A stretch of DNA of 64,000 nucleotides from Halorubrum salsamenti (GTDB taxonomy: Archaea > Halobacteriota > Halobacteria > Halobacteriales > Haloferacaceae): NCBI RefSeq assembly GCF_007671685.1, contig NZ_VCNL01000002.1, positions 62,001-126,000 of the forward strand, read 5' to 3'. Position 1 is the stretch's first letter; every line of letters starts with the position of its first letter. The notes under the pieces were generated by a model. That model saw only the letters and a program-made list of their open reading frames with translations. It did no database searches and was not told the origin of the DNA. The position numbers and the translations under genes were made by a program. This document shows positions 7,267 to 42,958 of the stretch, piece by piece.

Positions 7267-8529
7267 GTGGTCGATGGGTCCGGTCGCCGACGGAGCGGAA
7301 TCGTGATCGCGCCCGTCCTCGCGCAGATCGCGACAGCCCTCCTCGGCCTCCTCGGCGATCTCTACGGTGCGCTGACGGGGAACGGTCAGCGCGTCGCGGT
7401 CTCCGCGTTGATCGTCGCCAGTGTGCTCGGCGTCCGGTTGCTCACCGGGTGGCTGAAGCGGCGGAACGGAGAGCTCTCCTCGACGCGCCGGCTTCTGCTG
7501 TCGGTAGCGGTCGCCGGGGCCACCGCGGTCGGCGCGCTCTCCCTGATCGCGGTGTGGGACCGCAGCGGGGCGCTCCTCGACGCGTACGAGTCGGCAGCGA
7601 TCGCGGACCAGCTGTCGAACGTCGTCCTCGCGGTGGTGCTTTTGGCGAGCGCCTACGCGGTCACGGACTTCCTCGGCGGCGTCATCCGCGAGATCTCCGC
7701 CGAGAGCACGATGCTCACAGACCACCAGGAGGAGGTGATCCGGCGGCTCACCCAGATCTCGGTGTACACCTTCGCGCTGTTGGTCGTCGTCGGGCTGTTC
7801 ACCGACAACGTCGGCGGGCTCCTCGTCGGGGCCGGGTTCCTCGGGATCGTGGTCGGTATGGCGGCCCGCCAGACGCTCGGGGCGATCCTCGCCGGCTTCG
7901 TGCTGATGTTCTCCCGTCCGTTCGAGGTGGGCGACTGGGTGGAGGTCGGCGACCACGAGGGGACGGTCACGGAGATATCGATCATGAGCACCCGCCTCCG
8001 GTCGTTCGACGGCGAGGTGATCACGCTCCCGAACGACGACGTGCGCTCGGGATCGATCGTCGACCGGTCCCGGCGGAACCGCTATCGGATCGAGATCGAG
8101 GTCGGCGTCGACTACGACACCGACGTCGAGCGCGCGGCGGCGGTGATCGAGGAGACCGTCGCCGAGGTCGAGGACGTGGCGGCGATGCCCGAGCCGAACG
8201 CCGTGACGAAGCGGTTCGGCGACTCGGCGGTCGTGCTCGGGCTCCGCTACTGGATCCGGAACCCGAGCATGCGCAAGCGCTGGCGCACGCAGACCGCCGC
8301 GATGAACGCGATCAAGACGGCGCTCGAAGACGAGGGGATCGTGATCCCCTTCCCCCAGCAGACGCTCTCCGCGCGGGATGCGGACGTGTCCGGCCCGCAG
8401 TTGGACGCGTCGGTCGAGGAGCGCGCGGCGACGCGCAGCGGGTCGCGATCCGACGCCGGGAGCGGCGAGGCGTCCGAGAGCGAGGGCGACGACGGCGACA
8501 CCGACGGCTCGGAGGGGTCGGACCGATGA
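7267..8529 (+). CDS. Small-conductance mechanosensitive channel (MscS family)
   Basis: A 420-residue channel that would release solutes on hypo-osmotic shock, a pressing need for halophiles. About five hydrophobic segments are followed by the pore-lining and beta-domain region: GAGFLGIVVGMAARQTLGAILAGFVLMFSRPFEVGDWVEVG, the diagnostic MscS sequence. The C-terminal ~60 residues are a disordered Asp/Ser/Glu tail. The start is a GTG at 7267; another in-frame GTG at 7303 is possible. The stop overlaps hemK2 by 4 bp. It is an insertion into the usual ksgA-hemK2 gene pair. Confidence 0.9.
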   Translation: MVDGSGRRRSGIVIAPVLAQIATALLGLLGDLYGALTGNGQRVAVSALIVASVLGVRLLTGWLKRRNGELSSTRRLLLSVAVAGATAVGALSLIAVWDRSGALLDAYESAAIADQLSNVVLAVVLLASAYAVTDFLGGVIREISAESTMLTDHQEEVIRRLTQISVYTFALLVVVGLFTDNVGGLLVGAGFLGIVVGMAARQTLGAILAGFVLMFSRPFEVGDWVEVGDHEGTVTEISIMSTRLRSFDGEVITLPNDDVRSGSIVDRSRRNRYRIEIEVGVDYDTDVERAAAVIEETVAEVEDVAAMPEPNAVTKRFGDSAVVLGLRYWIRNPSMRKRWRTQTAAMNAIKTALEDEGIVIPFPQQTLSARDADVSGPQLDASVEERAATRSGSRSDAGSGEASESEGDDGDTDGSEGSDR

Positions 8530-9119
8530 CCGGTGACGACCCCGACGCCGGTCTCGCGGAGCGGCGCGGGCTCGACGAGGCCGTCGTGTACCAGCCGGCC
8601 GAGGACTCCGGGCTCCTCGCGGAGGCGGCCGTCTCGGAGGCGCACGGGCGGGTGCTGGAGGTCGGCACGGGCTCGGGATGGGTCGCCCAGCAGATCGCCG
8701 AGGAGCGCGGGCTCGACGTGGTCGGCAGCGACCTCAACCCGCACGCGGCGCGGCAGGCCCGCGATCGCGGCGTCGAGGGGGTCGTCGCCGACCTCCTCAC
8801 GCCGTTCCGGGCGGACGCGTTCGACACGGTGTGTTTCAACCCGCCGTACCTCCCGACCGACCCGGACAACGAGTGGGACGACTGGATGGAACACGCCCTC
8901 TCCGGCGGCGAGTCGGGCCGCGAGCTCATCGAGCCGTTCCTCGACGACGCGGGGCGCGTCCTCGCGCCCGGCGGCGTGGTCCTGCTTCTGGTCTCGTCGC
9001 TGACGGGGTACGACGAGGTGCTCGCCCTCGCCGAGGATGCCGGGTTCGCGGCCGATCCGGTCGTCGAGGAGTCGTTCCCGTTCGAGACACTCACGGTGTT
9101 GGCGCTGCGGCGGGAGTGA
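8526..9119 (+). CDS. HemK2/Mtq2-type protein-glutamine N5-methyltransferase
   Basis: A 197-residue class I SAM methyltransferase. Motif I is LEVGTGSGWVAQQIA (residues 44-58) and the catalytic NPPY is at residues 105-108, followed by LP as in HemK2/Mtq2 proteins. Members methylate the glutamine of the GGQ motif in class 1 release factors (aRF1 in archaea). There is no N-terminal PrmC domain, which favours HemK2 over bacterial PrmC. The ATG overlaps the channel gene's stop by 4 bp, so it belongs to the ksgA-led transcript. Confidence 0.85.
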   Translation: MTGDDPDAGLAERRGLDEAVVYQPAEDSGLLAEAAVSEAHGRVLEVGTGSGWVAQQIAEERGLDVVGSDLNPHAARQARDRGVEGVVADLLTPFRADAFDTVCFNPPYLPTDPDNEWDDWMEHALSGGESGRELIEPFLDDAGRVLAPGGVVLLLVSSLTGYDEVLALAEDAGFAADPVVEESFPFETLTVLALRRE

Positions 9120-9187
9120 GGCGGGGCTCGTTCGCCAGCGCCGCCGATCACTGTTCGATTACTATAGAGCATAAAATACATTAGCAA

Positions 9188-9196
9188 ATATTATAC
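9188..9196 (+). promoter_or_regulatory. TATA-like promoter element of the metE pair
   Basis: ATATTATAC lies 24-32 nt upstream of the ATG at 9220 within an unusually A/T-rich 50-bp stretch between hemK2 and the methionine synthase genes. This spacing is that of an archaeal promoter giving a very short or absent leader. Confidence 0.5.
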
Positions 9197-9219
9197 GACG
9201 GCATACCGAACCTACGGTG

Positions 9220-10221
9220 ATGACTGAACGAGTCGCGGCCACGCCGGGGCTGTACCCGCTCCCGGACTGGGCGAAGGAGACGCTCTCCGACCTCAAGGGG
9301 CACCAGAAGGGTGACCTCCTGAGCGGCGACGAGAGCGAGGCGATCGTCGAGGAGTACGCCGAGGTGCGCGCCGAGTACGTCGACGACCAGTTGGACGCCG
9401 GCCTCGACCGCGTCGTCGAGGGGCAGGGGCGCTGGGACGACATGATCGCGCACCCGCTGACGGTCCACGACAGCGTCGAGACCGGCGGGATCGTGCGGTA
9501 CTACGACAACAACAACTTCTACCGCGACCCGCGGGTCGTCGACGATCTCGACTTCTCCGGCGACGTGGCTCGCGAACTGGAGCGGGCGACCGACCTGATC
9601 GACGGCGAGGCCCCCCTCGCGGCGACGCTCCCCGGACCGTACTCGCTCGGGGAACTCGCGACCGACGAGCACTACGGCGACGAGGCCGAGTTCCAGGCCG
9701 CGATCGCCGACTTCCTCGCGGGCGAGGTCGAGGCGTTCCCCGCCCACGAGACGCTGTTCCTCCTCGAACCGTCGCTGGTGACCGACTCGCCCGCGGAGGG
9801 CGAGGAGTCGGCCGCGACCGACGCGATCGCGACGGTCGCCGACGCGACCGACGCCGACGTGGTCGTCCAGACCGCTTACGGCGCGCTCGGCGAGAAGCTG
9901 TACGCCCACCTCGTCGACGAGGCGGGCGCGGACGCCCTCGGGCTCGACCTGGTCGCCGGCGACCGCGACGACACCGTTTATAACGTCCAGGAGTTCGGCG
10001 CCACCGACTCGCTCGCGCTCGGGCTCGTCGACGGGCAGAACACGCTCGTCGAGGAGCCGGAGACGGTCGCGGAGCGCGTCGAGTGGTTCGAGTCGCAGAT
10101 CCCCGCCGAGGGGTTCGACCGGACGTACCTGACGCCCAACACCGAGCTGTTCTACCTGCCGACCAACAAGTACCGCGCGAAGCTGAACACGCTGGCCGCC
10201 GCCGCGGAGGTGCTCGACTAA
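9220..10221 (+). CDS. MetE-like methionine synthase, N-terminal-domain-type subunit
   Basis: A 333-residue TIM-barrel protein of the cobalamin-independent methionine synthase (UROD/MetE-like) superfamily. It begins VAATPGLYPLPDWAKETL and keeps LVVEGQGRWDDMI-type and PGPYSLGELA segments. It lacks the zinc-binding cysteines found in the downstream partner, so it resembles the MetE N-terminal half or a methyl-donor-binding subunit. The ATG at 9220 is preferred over a GTG at 9217. The stop codon shares one base with the next start (TAATG). Archaeal short MetE proteins may use a corrinoid protein or methyltetrahydropterin donor; the donor is unknown here. Confidence 0.8.
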   Translation: MTERVAATPGLYPLPDWAKETLSDLKGHQKGDLLSGDESEAIVEEYAEVRAEYVDDQLDAGLDRVVEGQGRWDDMIAHPLTVHDSVETGGIVRYYDNNNFYRDPRVVDDLDFSGDVARELERATDLIDGEAPLAATLPGPYSLGELATDEHYGDEAEFQAAIADFLAGEVEAFPAHETLFLLEPSLVTDSPAEGEESAATDAIATVADATDADVVVQTAYGALGEKLYAHLVDEAGADALGLDLVAGDRDDTVYNVQEFGATDSLALGLVDGQNTLVEEPETVAERVEWFESQIPAEGFDRTYLTPNTELFYLPTNKYRAKLNTLAAAAEVLD

Positions 10222-11291
10222 TGGTCCGAAACCCGTCTGCCAACCGCGAACAGTTCCGCCCGCACGACCACCCGAACGACGCGTTCCTGCTGACGACAGT
10301 CGTCGGCTCGTACCCGAAGCCGAAGTGGCTCAACCGGGCCGACGAGCTCGTCGACGACCCCGACTCGAAGTTCGACGAGTCGGACCTCGAAGAGGCGCAC
10401 GACGACGCCTGTCGGCTGATCACCCACGAGCACGAGCGCGCCGGGCTCGACACGGTCGTCGACGGCGAGATGCGCCGCAACGAGATGGTGGAGTTCTTCG
10501 CCGACCGCATCGACGGCTACGAGTTCAACGGTCCCGTGAAGGTGTGGGGCCACAACTACTTCGACAAGCCGTCGGTCGTCGAGGAGGTCGAGTACGACGA
10601 GCCGTGGCTGGTCGACGAGTTCGAGTTCACGTCCGACGTGTCCGAGCGTCCCGTCAAGGTCCCGATCACGGGGCCGTACACGCTCGGCTTCTGGGCGTTC
10701 AACGAGGCGTACCCCTCCACCGAGGAGCTCGTCTACGACCTCGCCGACCTCGTCAACGAGGAGGTCGAGAAGCTGGTCGAGGCCGGCGCGCGCTACATCC
10801 AGATCGACGAGCCCGCGCTGGCGACGACGCCCGAGGACCACGCCATCGTCGGCGAGGCCCTCGAACGCATCGTCTCGGGCATCGACGAGGAGGTCCGGAT
10901 CGGCCTCCACGTCTGTTACGGCGACTACTCGCGGATCTACCCCGAGATCAACGACTACCCGATCGACGAGTTCGACGTGGAGCTGTGTAACGGCGACTTC
11001 GAGCAGATCCCCACGTTCACCGACCCCGAGTTCGAGCCCGACCTCGCGCTCGGCGTCGTCGACGCCCACACCGCCGAGGTGGAGCCGGTCGAGGAGATCA
11101 AAGAGAACATCCGGCAGGGCCTGCGCGTCGTCCCGCCGGAGAAGCTCACGATCTCGCCCGACTGCGGGCTGAAGCTGCTTCCGCGCGACATCGCGTACGG
11201 CAAGACCGAGAACATGGTGACCGCAGTGCGGGAGATCGAGGCCGAGATCGACTCGGGCGCGATCGACGTCGAGAACCCGCTCGACGACTGA
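10221..11291 (+). CDS. metE: Cobalamin-independent methionine synthase, catalytic (C-terminal MetE-type) protein
   Basis: A 356-residue TIM-barrel enzyme predicted to methylate homocysteine to methionine. It starts with TTVVGSYPKP, as core MetE proteins do. The zinc site is intact: H230 and C232 in GLHVCYGD, an acidic ligand near E254, and C315 in ISPDCGLK. PITGPYTL and QIDEPAL (195-200) are conserved homocysteine-side motifs. Start and stop overlap by one base with the upstream paralogue, which implies co-translation and probably a two-subunit enzyme equivalent to a split MetE. Confidence 0.88.
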   Translation: MVRNPSANREQFRPHDHPNDAFLLTTVVGSYPKPKWLNRADELVDDPDSKFDESDLEEAHDDACRLITHEHERAGLDTVVDGEMRRNEMVEFFADRIDGYEFNGPVKVWGHNYFDKPSVVEEVEYDEPWLVDEFEFTSDVSERPVKVPITGPYTLGFWAFNEAYPSTEELVYDLADLVNEEVEKLVEAGARYIQIDEPALATTPEDHAIVGEALERIVSGIDEEVRIGLHVCYGDYSRIYPEINDYPIDEFDVELCNGDFEQIPTFTDPEFEPDLALGVVDAHTAEVEPVEEIKENIRQGLRVVPPEKLTISPDCGLKLLPRDIAYGKTENMVTAVREIEAEIDSGAIDVENPLDD

Positions 11292-11364
11292 GCCGGCGCT
11301 GTTTCGGGTTCCTCTGACAGTCCGGTTCCCGCTGAGACGGCCGGGAGACCGCGATCGCTTCCTG

Positions 11365-11803
11365 TTCGATGGCGGGAGTACGTGTAGTACGTCGTGAGTG
11401 AGGCAATTTATAAAGAGAATTGGGATGTTGCTGTCGGCTGTTTATAAGTGAGTGACGCTGCCGGGATGGTGATCTCCAAAGCCCCAGTCGCGACGGCTCG
11501 CGCGCCTTGTTGCGCGCCTCGCTCGGTCGCTTTCGCTCCCTCGCTGCGGTGCTTACTGCGGCGTGCTTCGCCCTCGCGACTGCCCCTTTGAGCCCCACCT
11601 GCCCCGCACAGCAGCCTCACACCTCCCCAGCCTCGCGGCTCCCTTCGGTCGCCGCGTCCCTCGCGCGGTGCTGCTCGGCCGCGAGGCGGCCTCGCAGGCA
11701 CGCGCCACCGCACTTCATTTATAAGCGATTGTCGCTGTCGCTCACGATCGTTTAAATACTCGCACGCTGCCACCGCTCTGTAATACCTACTCTCCGCATC
11801 GCT
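11365..11803 (-). repeat. Dispersed ~440-bp element with terminal inverted repeats, copy 1
   Basis: This gene-free block is homologous, in opposite orientation, to 36394-36829. The left end carries TTCGATGGCGGGAGTACGT (11365-11383) and the right end, read on the minus strand, AGCGATGCGGAGAGTAGGT (11803-11785), an imperfect inverted pair. TATA-like boxes lie inside both ends: TTTATAAAG and TTTATAAGT on the left, TTTATAAGC and TTTAAATA on the right. The most conserved core is 11581-11635; over 52 aligned bases I count 44 identical to copy 2. A 121-residue open frame crosses it on the minus strand but starts and ends differ from those in copy 2. It may be a non-autonomous mobile element or a structured RNA locus. 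Confidence 0.75.
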
Positions 11804-11905
11804 CGGTGCTATGTCTGTACTAAGCGACTAAGGACACAACTGTCAAATTCTGAGTATTTCAACAAAGCTCTCAATTGAAACAGATAGCCACTAGATATTA
11901 AGACA

Positions 11906-12106
11906 TCACGTGTTATTGACAAGTTGGTAAAACATAGCGACAATTACCAAGAATAGCATTAGATAGACAAGACTTGAAACAATTTCAATAAGAACATTAT
12001 CAAGGATATTCGCAATACTCGGCGCGCGGATTGTCGCAATGACGAATATACCAACAACAAGTATTATTCCCGCAGTGAATATTTCGATTATATCGTCTGG
12101 ATTCAT
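11906..12106 (-). CDS. Small two-helix membrane protein, function unknown
   Basis: A 66-residue protein that I do not recognise. Two hydrophobic segments are clear: residues ~9-27 (IFTAGIILVVGIFVIATI) and ~42-62 (SSLVYLMLFLVIVAMFYQ). Its start overlaps the stop of the upstream small membrane gene by 4 bp, so they look like a coupled pair. Codon use is AT-rich and unlike the chromosome around it. It could be a subunit of a membrane complex, a toxin-like peptide or a remnant of an inserted element; none of these is supported specifically. Confidence 0.55.
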   Translation of the reverse strand: MNPDDIIEIFTAGIILVVGIFVIATIRAPSIANILDNVLIEIVSSLVYLMLFLVIVAMFYQLVNNT

Positions 12107-12348
12107 GATTCTCCTCGCTTCAATCGTTCAATCGTAATTCGGTTGTACAGGCTGATTAATAAGGCGATGAGCACAAATGAGGTGATACCAGATAATACGG
12201 CTGCTGAGGAAACTGGCAGATCCTGACTAAGAACACGGAATGCGCCGGCAAAAAGACCAGTTCCAGTGCCAGCAACACTCACGAATATCCCCGCAAACTG
12301 AGGGAAGCTTAGATCGATCACACTCTGAGCAGACTCCTCATCACTCAA
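12103..12348 (-). CDS. Small membrane protein, function unknown
   Basis: An 81-residue protein with an acidic N-terminus (MSDEESAQS) and two hydrophobic stretches, ~14-38 and ~47-67 (AAVLSGITSFVLIALLISLYN), ending in a basic tail (RLKRGES). First gene of the coupled pair; the next ATG overlaps its stop by 4 bp. An A/T-rich stretch at 12357-12400 could hold its promoter. Not recognised. Its low-GC codon use suggests transfer. Confidence 0.55.
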   Translation of the reverse strand: MSDEESAQSVIDLSFPQFAGIFVSVAGTGTGLFAGAFRVLSQDLPVSSAAVLSGITSFVLIALLISLYNRITIERLKRGES

Positions 12349-12521
12349 GGTTGTCTACTCTAATAGATTAATATGTATTAAAAGTTAACTTAAATATCAA
12401 CCTTTGTTGGACACAGTCATTTTCCTGTCTGAGCGGTTGTGCCCCAAGATACCAGCTGAATTGTAACAGAGCCACCGACCCGCGGCACCATCTATACAAA
12501 GCCGCCGCACCCACCGCCGAC

Positions 12522-13271
12522 ATGGACATCGGCCTCACCGTCGGCGACGACCTCGACCGGCTCGCGGCGTCGCCGGCGCGGTTCGACTTCTGCGAGCTCG
12601 GGGTCGGCGAGCCGACGCTCGTGCCCGGCGATATCGACCGCGGGCGCTTGACCGACGCGCTCGACGGCCGCGACCTGCTCGTCCACCTGCCGTACAGCCA
12701 GCGGCTGGCGACGTACGTCCCCGAGGTCAACGACGCCATCGTGGACTACCAGCGCCGGCTCCTGGAGGCCGCCGGCGACCTGGGCGCGGAGAAGGCGGTC
12801 CTTCACGCCACCTCCGCCGACCGCGACGACACCGAGTTCCGCGAGGTCGCCGCCGACCAGCTCCGGCGAGTCGCCGACGCCGGCCGCGAGGCGGGCGTCG
12901 AGGTCGTCGTCGAGAACGTCGGCCACCAGCACGCGGGGCTCCAGCTGTCGGTCCTCGGCGATCTCGCCCGGGAGACGGACACCCCGATCTGCTTCGACGT
13001 GGGCCACGCGTACATGGAGGGCGACAACAAGGCGATACAGCGGTTCCTCCGGAGCCACGGCGACCGGATCTCGCACCTCCACTGCCACGACGTGCGCCGT
13101 CGCGGCGACACCCACCTCCCCGTGGGGGCCGGCGAGGTCGACTACGGACTCGTCGAGTCCGAACTCGGCGGTTTCGACGGGACGGTCGCTCTCGAGGTGT
13201 TCACCGACGACGAGACGCTCCTCCTCGACTCGGCCGAGCGGGTCGCGGAGCGGCTCGGTGCCGATTTTTAA
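12522..13271 (+). CDS. Sugar phosphate isomerase/epimerase-like TIM-barrel protein
   Basis: A 249-residue protein of the xylose isomerase-like / AP endonuclease 2 superfamily. Metal-ligand segments are visible: VVVENVGHQHAG (Glu), CFDVGHAYMEG (Asp and His), SHLHCHDVRRRGDTHLPVGAGEVDYG (His/Asp) and VALEVFTDDE (Glu) near the end. The pattern fits an isomerase or epimerase acting on sugars, or an endonuclease IV relative; the metabolic role is not fixed by neighbours. A TATA-like TCTATACAAAG lies about 30 nt upstream, suggesting a leaderless transcript. Confidence 0.8.
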   Translation: MDIGLTVGDDLDRLAASPARFDFCELGVGEPTLVPGDIDRGRLTDALDGRDLLVHLPYSQRLATYVPEVNDAIVDYQRRLLEAAGDLGAEKAVLHATSADRDDTEFREVAADQLRRVADAGREAGVEVVVENVGHQHAGLQLSVLGDLARETDTPICFDVGHAYMEGDNKAIQRFLRSHGDRISHLHCHDVRRRGDTHLPVGAGEVDYGLVESELGGFDGTVALEVFTDDETLLLDSAERVAERLGADF

Positions 13272-13301
13272 GAGTCCCGCTACCGAGCGACGGCGCGGCG
13301 A

Positions 13302-14156
13302 TCAGGTCGAGTCGCGGTCTGTGTCGTCGTCCTCGTCGTCCTCGTCGACCGCTTCGCCGTCCAGCTCCTCTCCGGGAGAACTGTCGCCGTCGGCCGAATC
13401 ACCGTCGACGTCGGACGACCCCGTCTCGGCGTCCGTCTCCTCGTCCGTCTCGTCGTCGAACTGCCGCTTGATCGATTCGAGTTCCGACTCCACGTCGACT
13501 TCGGGAGCGGGGTCGTCGTCCGGGTCGTCCCCTTCCCCATCTCCGCCGCTCTCGCCGTCCGCGTCCGGGTCGGTCACGTCGATCCGGACGCCGCGGTCGT
13601 CGTTTGCTTCGTCGGGGGTCCGAGTCGCATCCGGCCTGTCTTCGCTCCGGGTATCGACCCGGTCCCGCCGCCCGCGCCGGGCCGCGTCGGCCTCGCGGCG
13701 GCCCTCGTCGATCCGCGCTTCGATCTCCGCCGTGAGGTCGCGCGCGTCTTCGATGATCGACCGAGAGGCGGCCTCCTCCGGGAGGTCGGCCTCCGAGAGC
13801 GCCGTCCGGAGCTCCGAGAGCGACCGCGACAGCCCGGCGCTCGCGCCGTCCCGCACGTCGCCGAGGCGGTCGGTCGCCGAGCCCGCCTCGTCGAGGCTCC
13901 GGCCGGGGTCGGCGAGCCGGAGGGTCCCCTGCACCAGTTCGAGCGACTTGATCGTCGTCTCGAGGAGGGCGATCACCGTCGGGATGGTGTACCGCTCGGT
14001 GAATCGGACGAGCTCGGAGAGCCGGGGCGGCCGAGGGGGACCGCGGCGGTCCCGCTCGGTCTCTCGGAGGTCGCGGCGGAGCTCGCTCAGCACGTCCTCG
14101 AGCTCGTCGAGCCGCTCTTCGAGGTCGTCGTCGCGTCGGTCGTCGCGGGAACTCAT
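13302..14156 (-). CDS. Acidic coiled-coil haloarchaeal protein, function unknown
   Basis: A 284-residue soluble protein. Residues 1-45 are a charged coiled-coil-like stretch (LEERLDELEDVLSELRRDLRETE). Residues ~50-165 are a conserved-looking helical region (LVRFTERYTIPTVIALLETTIKSLELVQGTLRL). The last ~120 residues are a disordered Asp/Glu/Ser tail. The ATG at 14156 is chosen because extending to the upstream alternative would break into a basic, unrelated stretch. It appears to be a haloarchaeal conserved hypothetical; no function is claimed. Confidence 0.75.
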   Translation of the reverse strand: MSSRDDRRDDDLEERLDELEDVLSELRRDLRETERDRRGPPRPPRLSELVRFTERYTIPTVIALLETTIKSLELVQGTLRLADPGRSLDEAGSATDRLGDVRDGASAGLSRSLSELRTALSEADLPEEAASRSIIEDARDLTAEIEARIDEGRREADAARRGRRDRVDTRSEDRPDATRTPDEANDDRGVRIDVTDPDADGESGGDGEGDDPDDDPAPEVDVESELESIKRQFDDETDEETDAETGSSDVDGDSADGDSSPGEELDGEAVDEDDEDDDTDRDST

Positions 14157-38056: not shown

Positions 38057-38923
38057 ATGAGAAACGACGGGATCGATCGCGGGCTCCGCCCCGGTCGCGA
38101 TTCCCTTCCACTGGTCGGTACCGTCGGCGCGCTCTACCTCCTCGTCGCGCTGGGTGAGCGGGCGCTCTCCGGAGTCGTGTCGGTCCCGGCGCTCTCGGTC
38201 GTCGATCTGACCGCGGCGCTCCCGGTTCCGGTGCTGTTGGCGGCCGGCCCCGCGGCGCTGTGGGGGATTCTGTTCGGGCACGTGCTGAGCGATGCGGCGA
38301 CGAGTTCGCTCGGACCGGGCACCCTCGTCGGCGCGGGCGCGCATCTGTATCTCGGCTACGCGACGTGCACACTCCTCCGGCGGTCCGACGCCCCCCGCGC
38401 CTCTGACTCGGCCGGCCTCGGTCGGTTCGTCCTCGCCGTCGCCGTCGCGGCGGCCGGCGCGGCGGCCATCTCCGGATGGGGCGGCGAGGCCATCCACCGG
38501 ACGCCGTTCTTCGTCGCCGCGCCCGCGGCGTTCGCCGAGTTCACTCTCCTGAGCGTCCCGTTCGCGCTCCCGCTGGCCGGTCTGTTCAGGCGGGTCGCGT
38601 CCGCGGGCGCGTCGGCGTTCGACATCACCGCCGCCCCGCGACGGCGGTTCGACGGCCATCCCGACCTCCGCCGGGTCACCGCCGTAACGGTCGGATGGGT
38701 CGTCGTCGGGACGGTGGCGAGCGTCGGCTACCGGATGTTCGAGACGGTCCCCGCCGGTGCGTTCACGAGTCGCGACCTGGATTTCGTCCTGCTGTTGCGA
38801 CAGCCGACGCTGTTCGGACCCGGTGCGGGCCGTCTACAGGTGCTTTTGGGTGCGGTACTCCTGTCGTTCCTCGTGGTCCTCTTGGCCGATCCGTCCGATC
38901 GAGGGGGGACCCCCGTCCGATGA
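38057..38923 (+). CDS. Multi-helix membrane protein, function unknown (ECF-S/MASE-like arrangement possible)
   Basis: A 288-residue protein with about eight hydrophobic segments. The N-terminal part contains GILFGHVLSDAATSSLGPGTLVGAGAHLYLGYATCTLL (~70-108), reminiscent of ECF-transporter S components or MASE-type sensors; this resemblance is weak. The middle has a short charged loop (RRVASAGASAFDITAAPRRRFDGHPD). The stop overlaps the next gene by 4 bp, so it is coupled to the subunit-3-like protein and the GMC oxidoreductase. It might anchor that complex or be a separate transporter. Confidence 0.65.
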   Translation: MRNDGIDRGLRPGRDSLPLVGTVGALYLLVALGERALSGVVSVPALSVVDLTAALPVPVLLAAGPAALWGILFGHVLSDAATSSLGPGTLVGAGAHLYLGYATCTLLRRSDAPRASDSAGLGRFVLAVAVAAAGAAAISGWGGEAIHRTPFFVAAPAAFAEFTLLSVPFALPLAGLFRRVASAGASAFDITAAPRRRFDGHPDLRRVTAVTVGWVVVGTVASVGYRMFETVPAGAFTSRDLDFVLLLRQPTLFGPGAGRLQVLLGAVLLSFLVVLLADPSDRGGTPVR

Positions 38924-39432
38924 GACTGACCAGACGGCAGGCCCTCCTCGGTCTGGTCGGCGCGAGCTCCGTGGGCGGCCTCGGCGTCTACGAGTTGCTC
39001 GACCGCACGGCGACTGACGCCACCATCTCCGACGCAGGGATGAACGGCCTGCTCACCGTCGCCGATATCGTCCACCCGGCGGCCCCCGAAGACGTCGAAC
39101 CCGTGATTTCGGCCTACGTCGGCAGACTGAGCCACGACCGGATTCGCGGAGTCGTCAGGGCGCTGTCCGAGCTCGACAGTCGATCGCGCCGCCACTTCGG
39201 CGCGTCGTTCGGGGCGCTCTCCCGCGCGCAGGGCGAGCGTCTGCTGACGACGCTCGGGGTGAACCGAGTTCAGTCGAGACCGGAGGGGACGCTGGCCGAA
39301 CGCGTCCGCTATCACCTCGTCAACGCCGTCCTGTACGCGCTGTTGACCCGGCCCGCCGGGACCGAACTGTTCGGGATCGGCAACCCGGTCGGCTTCCCGG
39401 GCGGGTTCGGCTCCCACGCGGGGGAACCGTGA
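38920..39432 (+). CDS. Gluconate 2-dehydrogenase subunit 3-like protein with Tat-type signal
   Basis: A 170-residue protein beginning MRLTRRQALLGLVGASSVGGLG, a twin-arginine export signal (TRRQALLG) with a hydrophobic core. The mature part, MNGLLTVADIVHPAA...LSELDSRSRRHFGASFGALSRAQGERLLTTL, matches the gluconate 2-dehydrogenase subunit 3 family, small partners of membrane-bound FAD (GMC) dehydrogenases. It overlaps the following GMC gene by 4 bp. The signal would let a folded flavoenzyme be carried across the membrane as a hitchhiker. Confidence 0.82.
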   Translation: MRLTRRQALLGLVGASSVGGLGVYELLDRTATDATISDAGMNGLLTVADIVHPAAPEDVEPVISAYVGRLSHDRIRGVVRALSELDSRSRRHFGASFGALSRAQGERLLTTLGVNRVQSRPEGTLAERVRYHLVNAVLYALLTRPAGTELFGIGNPVGFPGGFGSHAGEP

Positions 39433-41063
39433 GCTCGGACGACGAACGGGCGACGCAGGTCGATCGCTCGCCGTCGCCCCGGGCTGACGTCTGCGTCGTG
39501 GGCGCCGGCGTGGCCGGCGGACTCCTCGCGCACTCGCTGGCGACGGCGGGACTCGACGTGGTCGTCCTCGAAGCGGGACCGCGGTTCGAGTTCGACTCGC
39601 GAATCGAGCGGATGGAGCGCGCGCTCCGTCCCGACAGCGCCCGGTCCGTCTGGGACATGGGCGGCGAACGCGACGCGTACGCCTCCTCGGGGCCGAAGGA
39701 CTACGACCTCAATCACAGGCGAGTCAAGGGCGTCGGCGGCACGACGCTCCACTGGGCGGGGTACACCCCACGCCTTCACGAGAAGGACTTCGAGATGCGC
39801 TCGCGGTACGGCCTCGCGAGCGACTGGCCCCTCGGATACGGCGACCTGCGGTCGTACTTCGCCGAGGCGGAGACGGAACTGGGCGTCGCGGGCGGCGACG
39901 ACAACCCGTTCTCCCCGCCGCGCGAACAGGACCACCCGCTCCCACCGTTCCCCACGGGGCCGGCCGACTCGCGCTACGCCGAAGCGTGTTCGGATCTCGG
40001 GATAACGCTGCACTCGGCTCCGCAGGCCCGGAACTCCGAGGCGTACGACGGCCGGAGTCCGTGCGTCGGATACAGCACCTGCATCCCGGTCTGTCCCTCG
40101 GGCGCGAAGTACAGCGGCGACGTGCACGTCCGGAAGGCAGAGGAGGCGGGCGCACGCGTCGTCGACCGCGCACCCGTTCAGTCGCTCGAACACGACGACG
40201 CGGGGGAGGTCGTCGAGGCCGCGGTGTACAACACGCCCGACGCCACGGAACTGCGTCAGGAGGCCCGATACTTCGTGCTCGCGGGGGGTGGGGTCGAGAT
40301 CCCGCGCCTCCTCCTGTCCTCGACTTCGGAGGCGTACCCCGACGGGCTGGCGAACTCCAGCGGTCTGGTGGGAAACTACTTCATGGAACACCCCATCGCG
40401 AGCGTCCGGGGGACGATACCGAAGCCCGAGGGGCAGGAACCCATCTTCTGGTGGCCGCTCGAGTCCCACCAGTTCTACGACCACGAGGAAGCGACGCCCG
40501 GAAGCATCAAACTGGAGTTCAAGCAGGGGAGCCAGGCCGAACCGACCGACGCGATCCGCGGGTTCGACGGCCTCGCCACCCCGTTCACGGGCGACGACCT
40601 GTCGGTCGAGGGCGGCCCCGAGTGGGACGGTTGGCGGCTGACGATAAGCGCGCTCGTCGAGATGCTCCCACGGGAGCGCAACCGCGTTGCGCTGGACGAG
40701 AGCCGGACGGACGACCACGGCAACCCCGTCCCGAACGTCGTACTGGACATCGGAAATCGGGAGGTCGAAACGCTGGAGCGCGCTCTCGACATCGGCACAC
40801 GCATCCTCGAATCGATGGGCGCGACGGACATCGAGACGACCGACCCCGAGAACCCCGGCTACGCGTCGCACCACATGGGAACCACCCGGATGGGCGAGGA
40901 CCCGACCGAGAGCGTTGTGAACCCGCAGCTGCGGACGCACGACCTCGACAACCTGTTCGTCGCCTCGTCGAGCGTCTTCGTCACGGCGGGGGCGATGAAC
41001 CCGACCCTGACCATCGGGGCGCTGTCGCTCCGGCTCGCGGACCACATCGCCGATCTGGACTGA
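39429..41063 (+). CDS. GMC-family FAD-dependent oxidoreductase (dehydrogenase large subunit)
   Basis: A 544-residue flavoprotein. The dinucleotide motif ADVCVVGAGVAGGLLAHSLATAGLDVVVLEAGPRF (~18-52) and VGGTTLHWAGYTPRL (~101-115), plus the C-terminal GYASHHMGTTRMGEDP...NLFVASSSVFVTAGAMNPTLTIGALSLRLADHI with the conserved His and Asn, match gluconate/sorbitol dehydrogenase-type GMC proteins. It lacks its own signal; the coupled Tat-signal partner upstream could export it. GTG start at 39429 overlaps the partner's stop. The sugar or alcohol substrate is unknown, and no cytochrome subunit is seen. Confidence 0.88.
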   Translation: MSSDDERATQVDRSPSPRADVCVVGAGVAGGLLAHSLATAGLDVVVLEAGPRFEFDSRIERMERALRPDSARSVWDMGGERDAYASSGPKDYDLNHRRVKGVGGTTLHWAGYTPRLHEKDFEMRSRYGLASDWPLGYGDLRSYFAEAETELGVAGGDDNPFSPPREQDHPLPPFPTGPADSRYAEACSDLGITLHSAPQARNSEAYDGRSPCVGYSTCIPVCPSGAKYSGDVHVRKAEEAGARVVDRAPVQSLEHDDAGEVVEAAVYNTPDATELRQEARYFVLAGGGVEIPRLLLSSTSEAYPDGLANSSGLVGNYFMEHPIASVRGTIPKPEGQEPIFWWPLESHQFYDHEEATPGSIKLEFKQGSQAEPTDAIRGFDGLATPFTGDDLSVEGGPEWDGWRLTISALVEMLPRERNRVALDESRTDDHGNPVPNVVLDIGNREVETLERALDIGTRILESMGATDIETTDPENPGYASHHMGTTRMGEDPTESVVNPQLRTHDLDNLFVASSSVFVTAGAMNPTLTIGALSLRLADHIADLD

Positions 41064-41149: not shown

Positions 41150-41671
41150 ATGCGTCGCCGCCTCGGAACCAGTCTGTACGCCGGGCTCCTCTTCACCGTC
41201 CTCGGCGCGATCGCGTGGGGGACCGGCCAGCCGTTCGTCTTCCCGAGCCTCGGCCCGTCGGCGTTCCTGATCGCCTTCGACCGACGGAGCGAGCGCGAGC
41301 GGGCCGCCCGGATCGTCGGGAGTCACCTCATCGGTGGCGTCGCCGGGCTCGCGGCGTGGTCGCTGATCGCGGCCGGCGCCAGCCTCACCGCGACGCCGCC
41401 CGCGTTCTCGCCGGAAGGGTTCCGCTTGGCCGCGAGCGCGACCGTCTCGCTCGTGGTCACCAGTTGGGCGATGATCGCCACCGACGCGGTTCACGCGCCC
41501 GCCTGCGCGACGACGCTCATCGTGTCTCTCGGCCTCCTCTCGACCCCGATCGAGGTGGCGATCATCGTCGCGAGCGTGACCGTGCTCGTTGGCTTTCACG
41601 CCGGCGTGATTCTGGTGTTCAAGCGGATCGTGGGCGACGCACACCCCCTCTATCGGTCAGAGGAGCGCTGA
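41150..41671 (+). CDS. HPP family membrane protein
   Basis: A 173-residue protein with four to five hydrophobic segments. It starts RRRLGTSLYAGLLFTVLGAIAWGTGQPFVFPSLGPSAFLIAF, and VFPSLGPSAFL is the typical HPP N-terminal motif. Then come IVGSHLIGGVAGLAAWSLI and MIATDAVHAPACATTLIVSLG (the HPPA-like segment, here HAPA), and GFHAGVILVF near the end. HPP members have been linked to nitrite transport in plastids and cyanobacteria; the archaeal role is unknown. The gene lies 86 bp after the GMC gene on the same strand. Confidence 0.85.
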   Translation: MRRRLGTSLYAGLLFTVLGAIAWGTGQPFVFPSLGPSAFLIAFDRRSERERAARIVGSHLIGGVAGLAAWSLIAAGASLTATPPAFSPEGFRLAASATVSLVVTSWAMIATDAVHAPACATTLIVSLGLLSTPIEVAIIVASVTVLVGFHAGVILVFKRIVGDAHPLYRSEER

Positions 41672-41680
41672 CCGCCTCGC

Positions 41681-42958
41681 TCAGTCGTCCGGCCGCTGCG
41701 CCCGCCTGTCGAAGACGGACAGCACCGGGTCGGGGTCCGCCAGTCCCGGGAGTCGGTACTCGTCGTCGCGGCGTTCGATCACGACGGTCTCGGTCCCGAG
41801 CCGCCGGTCGAGCCGCCCGCGTGTCACCCGCAGGTCGGTCTCGTCCCACGGCTCGACGCGCCACAGAGTCACGCCGAACAGGCGGTCGCGGGCGACGAGC
41901 GCGTCGTCGCCGGCGCGGTACGCGACGAGGCCGTATCGGAGTTCGTGGTCGAGCGCGGCGAGCCCCAGCGGGACCGCGACCGCGACCGCGGCGAGAGTGC
42001 CGGCGGTCGCCCGGTTTCCCCCGATCGCGAACAGCGCGGCGACGAGCGCGGGGAGCGCGGCGAGGTACCACAGCCCGGGGTGGCCGAGGGGCGTCGTCAG
42101 TACCCCAGCGAGCCGCGCGCGGAGAGGCTGGCGGACCGTCCGAACCGGCTCGCCGACCGAGCCGTCGGGCGGCTCGGGCGAGGGAGGCTCGTGCGAGAAC
42201 CCCAGGTCCAGCGCCGACGACTCGTCGAACGCCGCCAGCCGATCGCCGTACAGCCCGGCGAGGTCGAACGTGGCCTTCACCGCGACGATCCCGAGCAGGA
42301 GGGGGAGTCCGACGGCGTCCGGGTCGATGGCGCCGATCTCGGCCTCGGTGCCGACCGTCGCGGCGCCGACGAGCATCACCGTGAATATCGCTCCGAGGAA
42401 GATCGCCGCGGCGCGCGCGAACACGCCCCGGACCGCCGTCTGGGCGCTGTGGTCGCGGTACTCGCCGCGGCCGAAGTACTCGACGGCCGTCGTCGCCGCC
42501 CCGCCGACGAAGACGGCGACGATCGCGAGCGTCACGCTGTCGAGCACGTCCGGCGCGAGTCCGCCGTCGGCGACGACGCCGACCGTGAGACCCCCGACGA
42601 ACAGCCAGACGACCGCGAGGATCGGCACGGCGATCGGGAGCACGAGCAGCGAGGAGAGCCGGATCCGAAGGCCCGTTCGGGGGATCGACAGCACGACCCG
42701 TCGCTGTGCGAGCGGCCCGGCGATCAGAGCGTCACGCTCGATCTCGGAGGGACGCCCGGCGAACAGCGCGCGGACGACGGCGTAGAAGGAAGCGATCCCG
42801 AGCTCGAACCAGTAGAGCGTCATCAGCGCGGCCGCGTTCCAGCCGAGGGCGACCACGCCGACGAGCGGGAGGAGGTTGGAGACGAGCAGCGCGGCCGCCC
42901 GGGGGCGGCGACCCCGAGCGAGGGCGCCGAGAGGGGAGTCTCGGTCGGTGGAGGGCAT
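41681..42958 (-). CDS. DUF6498-like multi-pass membrane protein
   Basis: A 425-residue protein. The N-terminal half has about six hydrophobic helices, starting LLVSNLLPLVGVVALGWNAAALMTLYWFELGIASFYAVVRALFAG, which resembles DUF6498 membrane proteins. The C-terminal ~110 residues form a soluble beta-rich domain (DHELRYGLVAYRAGDDALVARDRLFGVTLWRVEPWDETDLRVTRGRLDRRLGTETVVIERRDDEYRLPGLADPD) that reads like a bacterial PH domain. No function is known. It is the last gene of a minus-strand cluster led by gatD. Confidence 0.78.
   Translation of the reverse strand: MPSTDRDSPLGALARGRRPRAAALLVSNLLPLVGVVALGWNAAALMTLYWFELGIASFYAVVRALFAGRPSEIERDALIAGPLAQRRVVLSIPRTGLRIRLSSLLVLPIAVPILAVVWLFVGGLTVGVVADGGLAPDVLDSVTLAIVAVFVGGAATTAVEYFGRGEYRDHSAQTAVRGVFARAAAIFLGAIFTVMLVGAATVGTEAEIGAIDPDAVGLPLLLGIVAVKATFDLAGLYGDRLAAFDESSALDLGFSHEPPSPEPPDGSVGEPVRTVRQPLRARLAGVLTTPLGHPGLWYLAALPALVAALFAIGGNRATAGTLAAVAVAVPLGLAALDHELRYGLVAYRAGDDALVARDRLFGVTLWRVEPWDETDLRVTRGRLDRRLGTETVVIERRDDEYRLPGLADPDPVLSVFDRRAQRPDD

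Follow-up and report, generated by a model that had tools for sequence, protein, structure and literature searches.

We analysed a stretch of 64,000 nucleotides from the haloarchaeon Halorubrum salsamenti (NCBI RefSeq assembly GCF_007671685.1, contig NZ_VCNL01000002.1, positions 62,001 to 126,000 of the forward strand), referred to here as the window, with coordinates counted from its first letter. Three coupled genes in the window, which we call M, S and G, probably encode an outward-facing, membrane-bound flavin adenine dinucleotide (FAD) dehydrogenase of three subunits, exported by a hitchhiker route over the twin-arginine translocation (Tat) pathway, with M as its heme-free membrane subunit. 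M is a derived S component of an energy-coupling factor (ECF) transporter, with QueT-like relatives, that carries two additional helices. The three genes are intact, lie on the same strand and are chained by exact 4-bp overlaps, just as an earlier note made from the letters of the window alone had described, and all of them have a coding-like G+C pattern over the codon positions. In three other families, too, there are loci with a 4-bp M/S overlap (L121, L162 and L168). The features are as follows.

38057..38923, + strand: M, membrane protein, 288 residues, ATG start
38920..38923, + strand: M/S overlap, ATGA, 4 bp
38920..39432, + strand: S, small subunit with a Tat signal, resembling subunit 3 of gluconate 2-dehydrogenase, 170 residues, ATG start
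39429..39432, + strand: S/G overlap, GTGA, 4 bp
39429..41063, + strand: G, signal-less GMC flavoprotein of the FAD-glucose dehydrogenase (FAD-GDH)/fructose dehydrogenase (FDH) large-subunit type, 544 residues, GTG start
41150..41671, + strand: putative downstream multi-helix membrane protein, 173 residues, a possible member of the operon

Both GMC domains, GMC_oxred_N and GMC_oxred_C, are matched by G above the cut-off, and its N-terminus enters the FAD-binding motif directly, which bears out the signal-less flavoprotein of the earlier note. The same signal-less start is found in 22 of the 24 called M-linked G relatives listed, the other two being called from an internal start. Among solved structures G matches best with two large subunits, that of Burkholderia FAD-glucose dehydrogenase (BcGDH; PDB 8hdd/6a2u, 296 bits) and that of Gluconobacter fructose dehydrogenase (PDB 7w2j, 290 bits), and the next GMC protein, pyranose oxidase, is far behind at 66.6 bits. 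Residues Cys212, Cys218 and Cys222 of G align with the cysteines of the same numbers that hold the 3Fe-4S cluster of BcGDH (excerpt of PMC6719666), while His481 and Asn524 align with the catalytic pair His476/Asn519. Among 107 haloarchaeal G proteins the three cysteines and the histidine are present in all and the asparagine in 104, and by homology G is predicted to carry FAD and one 3Fe-4S cluster. The substrate expected from the family is a sugar-like alcohol. G itself is common, with some match in 51 of 59 relatives. For ten of the 107 (L040, L044, L045, L050, L051, L057, L059, L082, L101 and L112) no S could be detected within 1.5 kb of the G gene, even though proteins of this type are signal-less.

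The N-terminus of S reads MRLTRRQALLGLVG, and its twin arginines are invariant in all 30 aligned S proteins. The Tat signal proposed earlier is thereby upheld. With PF13618, the subunit-3 family to which the earlier note had likened S, the window copy scores 19.5 bits (E 0.0013), under the curated cut-off of 23.4. An orthologue in which M and S are fused, described below, passes this cut-off with 29.9 bits. PF13618 was found in 283 of the 391 haloarchaeal genomes searched, and the small subunit of the bacterial FAD-glucose dehydrogenase has been described as a Tat hitchhiker (excerpt of PMC6719666).

An AlphaFold2 model of M (pLDDT 83.6, pTM 0.82), whose input alignment also contained ECF-linked relatives, shows the eight membrane helices that the earlier note had counted, TM2 being a broken pair; a simple hydropathy count gave six. 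Residues ~11-196 are predicted to form an ECF S-component fold and are followed by the extra helices TM7 (204-230) and TM8 (255-277), which are linked by a predicted extracytoplasmic segment at ~231-254 (VPAGAFTSRDLDFVLLLRQPTLFG); about 11 residues remain after TM8. The counts of Lys and Arg, higher inside, fit an N-in/C-in topology in all 25 aligned proteins of the S-G type, i.e. the sequence type of M that is found beside S and G, and with this topology the TM7-TM8 segment faces outwards, towards the expected place of S and G. The best structural match of the model in VIA is TmRibU (Z 11.3, root-mean-square deviation 3.2, 151 aligned residues). The eleven best rows (Z 11.3 to 8.2) are S components according to their entries (RibU, FolT, BioY, PanT, ThiT), the twelfth is a CbiMQO chain (7.7) and the next one drops to 6.4, the twelve best all being ECF transporter chains; the tool warns that Z values below ~13 may reflect a common arrangement in helical bundles. 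Foldseek also places TmRibU first, with an E-value of only 0.4.

Profile comparisons point in the same direction. When 13 S-G-type M proteins, including that of the window, were compared with 12 ECF-linked relatives by hhalign, the probability was 99.7 (E 2.9e-25, 245 columns); a second S-G-type clade of 11 rows gave 96.5 (E 7.4e-10) with the ECF-linked proteins, and the two S-G-type clades gave 98.0 (E 2.8e-13) with each other, these E-values being pairwise and without database correction. Control comparisons with alignments of LtrA and EcfT, which are unrelated polytopic families, gave probabilities of 0.0 and 0.1. The Pfam scan found no family for the window M and found QueT (PF06177) in none of 11 further S-G-type proteins; among the relatives scanned, QueT was matched by all four ECF-linked proteins and by the single LtrA-linked one, and in all four loci read the ECF transporter A and T genes come after the QueT-matching gene. 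The profile of the ECF-linked relatives gave no match to PDB sequences. Two other identities of M were considered and rejected: a novel fold, since the profile and structure comparisons place M with ECF S components, and a cytochrome b, as no histidine column reaches 60% in the S-G type. The earlier note had thus recognised a membrane partner, and its tie to S and G has held, but the partner is not novel in fold. We infer that the change ran from transporter to dehydrogenase subunit. In the sample of the phylum the S-G-type profile matched 11 of 196 genomes; six of these lie outside the order and match only to about residue 182 or less, and the one of the six that was looked at (L211, from the non-haloarchaeal genome G423) has, judged by eye, an EcfT-like domain and a QueT-like S component in one 527-residue open reading frame (ORF; 1297-2880) that adjoins an ABC ATPase gene. 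This fusion fits an ECF origin of the M family.

A profile search for M in the 391 haloarchaeal genomes gave 61 matching stretches in 55 genomes, which were merged into 58 loci: 25 lie beside S and G, 21 in ECF operons, 9 beside LtrA and 3 in other settings, and as the profile was built from S-G-type M these counts favour that type. The 25 loci in which S lies within 600 bp of M are spread over 23 genomes, and the arrangement exceeds chance. Setting and sequence type agree in 58 of 58 loci: the S-G-type profile scores higher in all 25 S-G-linked proteins and in the three from other settings, the ECF-type profile in 21 of 21 ECF-linked and 9 of 9 LtrA-linked proteins, where most S-G-type rows belonged to the training set of the profile and six (G379, G339, G149, G236, G205 and G122) did not. 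A branch with 100/100 support also sets the 27 rows of the S-G type apart from the other 19. In total 28 loci carry M of the S-G sequence type, 25 of them with S within 600 bp, two with S farther away and one as a truncated remnant; M standing alone in most genomes, which the earlier note had set against its own proposal, is not what was found. In the truncated case (L195, 343-954) M lies near the contig end, seemingly joined to the end of the G gene, and is likely a deletion remnant. One of the 25, upstream of an S-G pair in L192 (3803-4460), reads in two frames. The distribution of M is patchy, a close M being present in 3 of 35 genomes of the same genus, to which a divergent M in Halorubrum kocurii is added; M of the L107/L115 type escaped the single-sequence search and was recovered via gene order and profiles.

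The TM7-TM8 segment differs between the settings: it has 46-50 residues in the 25 S-G-type rows, 17-35 in 17 ECF-linked rows (one of which, L180, has an aberrant C-terminus) and 34-35 in three LtrA-linked rows. The LtrA-linked loci (L179, L181, L196, L145, L146, L149, L151, L152 and L153; 9 of the 58) hold QueT-like S components beside an LtrA-type membrane protein without an adjacent ECF module, LtrA (PF06772) being assigned by scan in L179 and by similarity in the other eight. They are possibly another non-ECF use of the S-component fold.

In two genomes, probably of the genus Haloferax, M and S form a single ORF of 444 residues, with no stop in either. It begins with the helices of M and runs through ...RQEAIVLTRRDALITFAAAGAVAVGVVGAQRP... 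into the S domain; a Tat motif inside the ORF, LTRRDA, follows TM8 and precedes a further hydrophobic stretch, which would be a ninth helix, the helix number being taken from the model of the window M plus this added stretch. In the L167 copy the two arginines stand at about residue 277, the hydrophobic stretch at 279-297 and an arginine after it. The former start codon of S is ATC in the copy whose DNA was read, and the fusion probably arose in one event. By its predicted helices the fused protein has the layout of dual Sec-Tat proteins, in which the helix number is odd and the twin arginines immediately precede the final helix. Of the two routes by which such proteins have been proposed to arise, one starts from neighbouring genes, and the M-S family is not among the families named in the excerpt of PMC5449189 from which this is taken.

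The three proteins have also been inherited together. In a tree of the 107 G proteins the 29 M-linked ones form two clades, one of 17 that includes the window (support 95) and one of 12 (support 99), and the M-linkage label changes only twice on the tree versus a mean of 25.7 after shuffling, with none of 500 shuffles as low; as many loci were fetched through M, the M-linked ones are over-represented in this sample, and the tree has long branches. The distance matrices from 28 of the 29 loci (L170, with an incomplete M, was dropped) correlate at 0.895 for M and S, 0.836 for M and G and 0.891 for S and G, where the permutation maxima are 0.25, 0.20 and 0.28, respectively, and the correlations include shared ancestry and near-copies.

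Gene order, the fusion, the homologies, the missing ECF-docking pattern (AxxAAxxAA, see below), the longer TM7-TM8 segment and the co-inheritance are features of the sequences, and from them we infer complex formation, localisation and an electron route as follows. G would fold in the cytoplasm and bind S, whose Tat signal would carry G out of the cell, and M would hold S and G on the outer face of the membrane as an integral subunit. Since the one-electron carrier of haloarchaea is halocyanin rather than cytochrome c, and since they use menaquinone (excerpt of PMC8305020), M would fill the position that a multiheme cytochrome c subunit has in the bacterial enzymes. From the 3Fe-4S cluster of G the electrons may pass either to halocyanin or to menaquinone, the latter at M or close by. 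The lack of the usual cytochrome subunit, a point of the earlier note, was reproduced: CxxCH occurs in none of the 64 genes called in the window (cytochrome genes elsewhere in the genome were not searched for) and in one of 288 genes of 24 related loci, a 57-residue ORF that resembles a zinc finger. A more specific version, to which we give considerably less credence and which we offer tentatively, is that M is a heme-free quinone-reducing subunit in which the S-component pocket or the TM7-TM8 hairpin was remade as a menaquinone site that takes electrons directly from the 3Fe-4S cluster.

There are several points that speak against a three-subunit enzyme and need to be discussed. M is found near only 29 of the 107 G genes, i.e. 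most of the S-G pairs examined have no M. M is therefore not generally needed for export or turnover, and elsewhere S-G must be able to function in its absence, perhaps by means of an acceptor that is soluble or lipid-anchored. The co-occurrence check called for by the earlier note thus came out in one direction: S-G-type M is nearly always with S-G, but it is not their general partner. The proposal made there was largely right, yet it missed the origin of M and the fact that S-G without M is the commoner form. Moreover, M lacks conserved His and Cys residues as well as any cofactor site that could be named, and profile, Foldseek and VIA searches with S gave no useful match, to the bacterial small subunit or otherwise, which leaves PF13618, the Tat motif and gene order as the basis for assigning S. 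The M-S fusion is known from a single genus, and there from only 2 of 15 genomes. In L174 and L175, M lies outside the S-G operon, on the other strand and convergent across another gene, ~2.4 kb from G and ~4 kb from S. Finally, at least one AxxxA is retained in helix 1 of 10 of the 25 S-G-type proteins, so that the absence of this motif is not total, and in a few rows of this count the helix-1 stretch is short or gapped; an EcfT/CbiQ gene, moreover, is present in 24 of 26 M-bearing genomes.

The last two points lead to the alternative that M is still a transporter, either as a solitary S component or by borrowing an ECF module in trans, and imports the substrate or the product of S-G; the gene order would then mark a shared pathway instead of a complex. 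The S-component fold agrees with this, and BtuM as well as certain BioY proteins are transporters that do without an ECF module (excerpt of PMC11109136). Our attempt to rule out ECF coupling by a missing module failed, as the EcfT/CbiQ gene is widespread (23 of 23 among the M-bearing genomes of higher completeness and lower contamination); the genome of the window has one CbiQ-type T gene, elsewhere than the M locus. We nevertheless regard this alternative as unlikely. Docking to EcfT requires the AxxxA motif, which S-fold receptors and MreD do not have (excerpts of PMC4820897 and PMC11109136), and the doubled form of this motif, AxxAAxxAA, present in helix 1 of 17 of 17 ECF-linked relatives, is missing from 25 of 25 S-G-type proteins, that of the window having no AxxxA at all in this helix. 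Residues invariant in the ECF-linked relatives have been lost as well, no ECF gene was matched in the stretches around any of the 25 S-G-linked M genes, the longer TM7-TM8 segment is specific to the S-G type, and the covalent fusion with S is at odds with an importer.

An assembly or quality-control factor, or a chaperone, that serves the Tat export of S-G and is not part of the finished enzyme would agree with the position of M as the first gene of the operon, with its fusion to the Tat-signal subunit in one lineage and with the lack of a recognisable redox site. Yet the fusion would leave such a factor permanently attached, the S-G pairs without M export without it, if they export at all, and the longer segment on the outer face would be odd for a factor working on the cytoplasmic side; we consider this role improbable, more so than that of a transporter. 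Least probable is a sensor that, like the 5TMR receptors, would report the substrate or redox state of S-G: the fold is used by receptors that likewise have no AxxxA (excerpt of PMC11109136), but a cytosolic signalling domain could not be accommodated in the ~11 residues after TM8. The heme-free membrane subunit of an exported dehydrogenase is the reading we prefer over these.

It is useful to compare the M-S-G set with the systems it resembles; no description of it was found among the literature matches listed, which comprised titles and abstract openings and left subscription journals largely uncovered. Like the FAD-GDH/FDH complexes it combines a GMC catalytic subunit with 3Fe-4S cysteines and an adjacent gene for a predicted Tat-signal small subunit, but it is haloarchaeal and has a membrane protein of S-component fold in place of an adjacent multiheme cytochrome c gene. 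With the ECF S components (RibU, FolT, BioY, ThiT and QueT, PF06177) M shares the predicted six-helix fold and the profile homology to haloarchaeal QueT-like proteins. It differs from them in the two extra helices, which are common to its haloarchaeal ECF-linked relatives, in having neither the doubled AxxxA nor an adjacent ECF module, and in being tied to a dehydrogenase. The 5TMR histidine kinases and MreD are likewise non-transport uses of the fold without AxxxA (excerpt of PMC11109136), but M has no signalling domain and its predicted partner is an exported flavoenzyme. The dual Sec-Tat proteins of the excerpt of PMC5449189 (actinobacterial Rieske, Sco3746 and the NapH-NapG-type polyferredoxin) share with fused M-S the twin arginines before the last predicted helix, the odd helix number and the arginine after it; the difference is that fused M-S consists of eight S-fold-type helices and a subunit-3 domain, and that the layout exists in the fused form only and not in the window.

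The surroundings of the operon were also read, with genes called by our own gene caller, some of whose start positions are wrong. Upstream of M, a prepilin-peptidase-like gene (PF01478, PF06847; 36900-37889, - strand) is divergent across a gap of 167 bp, and downstream a gene for a DUF6498 membrane protein (41681-42958, - strand) is convergent with the operon. Both close M-S-G relatives (L124 and L125) have a 173-residue ORF in the matching place and a 425-residue ORF at the position of the DUF6498 gene. The genome of the window contains a second, canonical S-G copy (L126, ~8000-13531) that nests among the Halorubrum rows of the G tree; by eye, a transporter-permease-like gene lies divergently upstream of this copy, and genes for a glycosyltransferase-like and a nine-helix protein follow it, a similar arrangement being seen again in loci of Halorubrum and Natrinema. 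Several M-S-G loci (L169, L174, L168 and L192), again judged by eye, lie among flippase, nucleotide-sugar and sulfatase-like genes, and the gene surroundings of S-G and M-S-G loci hint at sugars. Two ECF transporter modules stand back to back in L122 (6270-13096), from a genome of the same genus.

If our interpretation is true, an exported redox enzyme has taken over the fold of a transporter subunit for one of its own subunits, with a structural role and perhaps one in electron transfer, which would suggest that GMC dehydrogenases of haloarchaea can be attached to the membrane free of cytochrome c. A heme-free, naturally fused membrane dehydrogenase would then be available for study, and the destination of the electrons from archaeal GMC dehydrogenases becomes testable in the genetically tractable Haloferax. 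Should M in addition prove to reduce quinone, it would add to the known roles of the S-component fold one that is neither transport nor sensing, the enzyme would be a cytochrome-free sugar-type dehydrogenase, and fused M-S would be a new dual Sec-Tat family.

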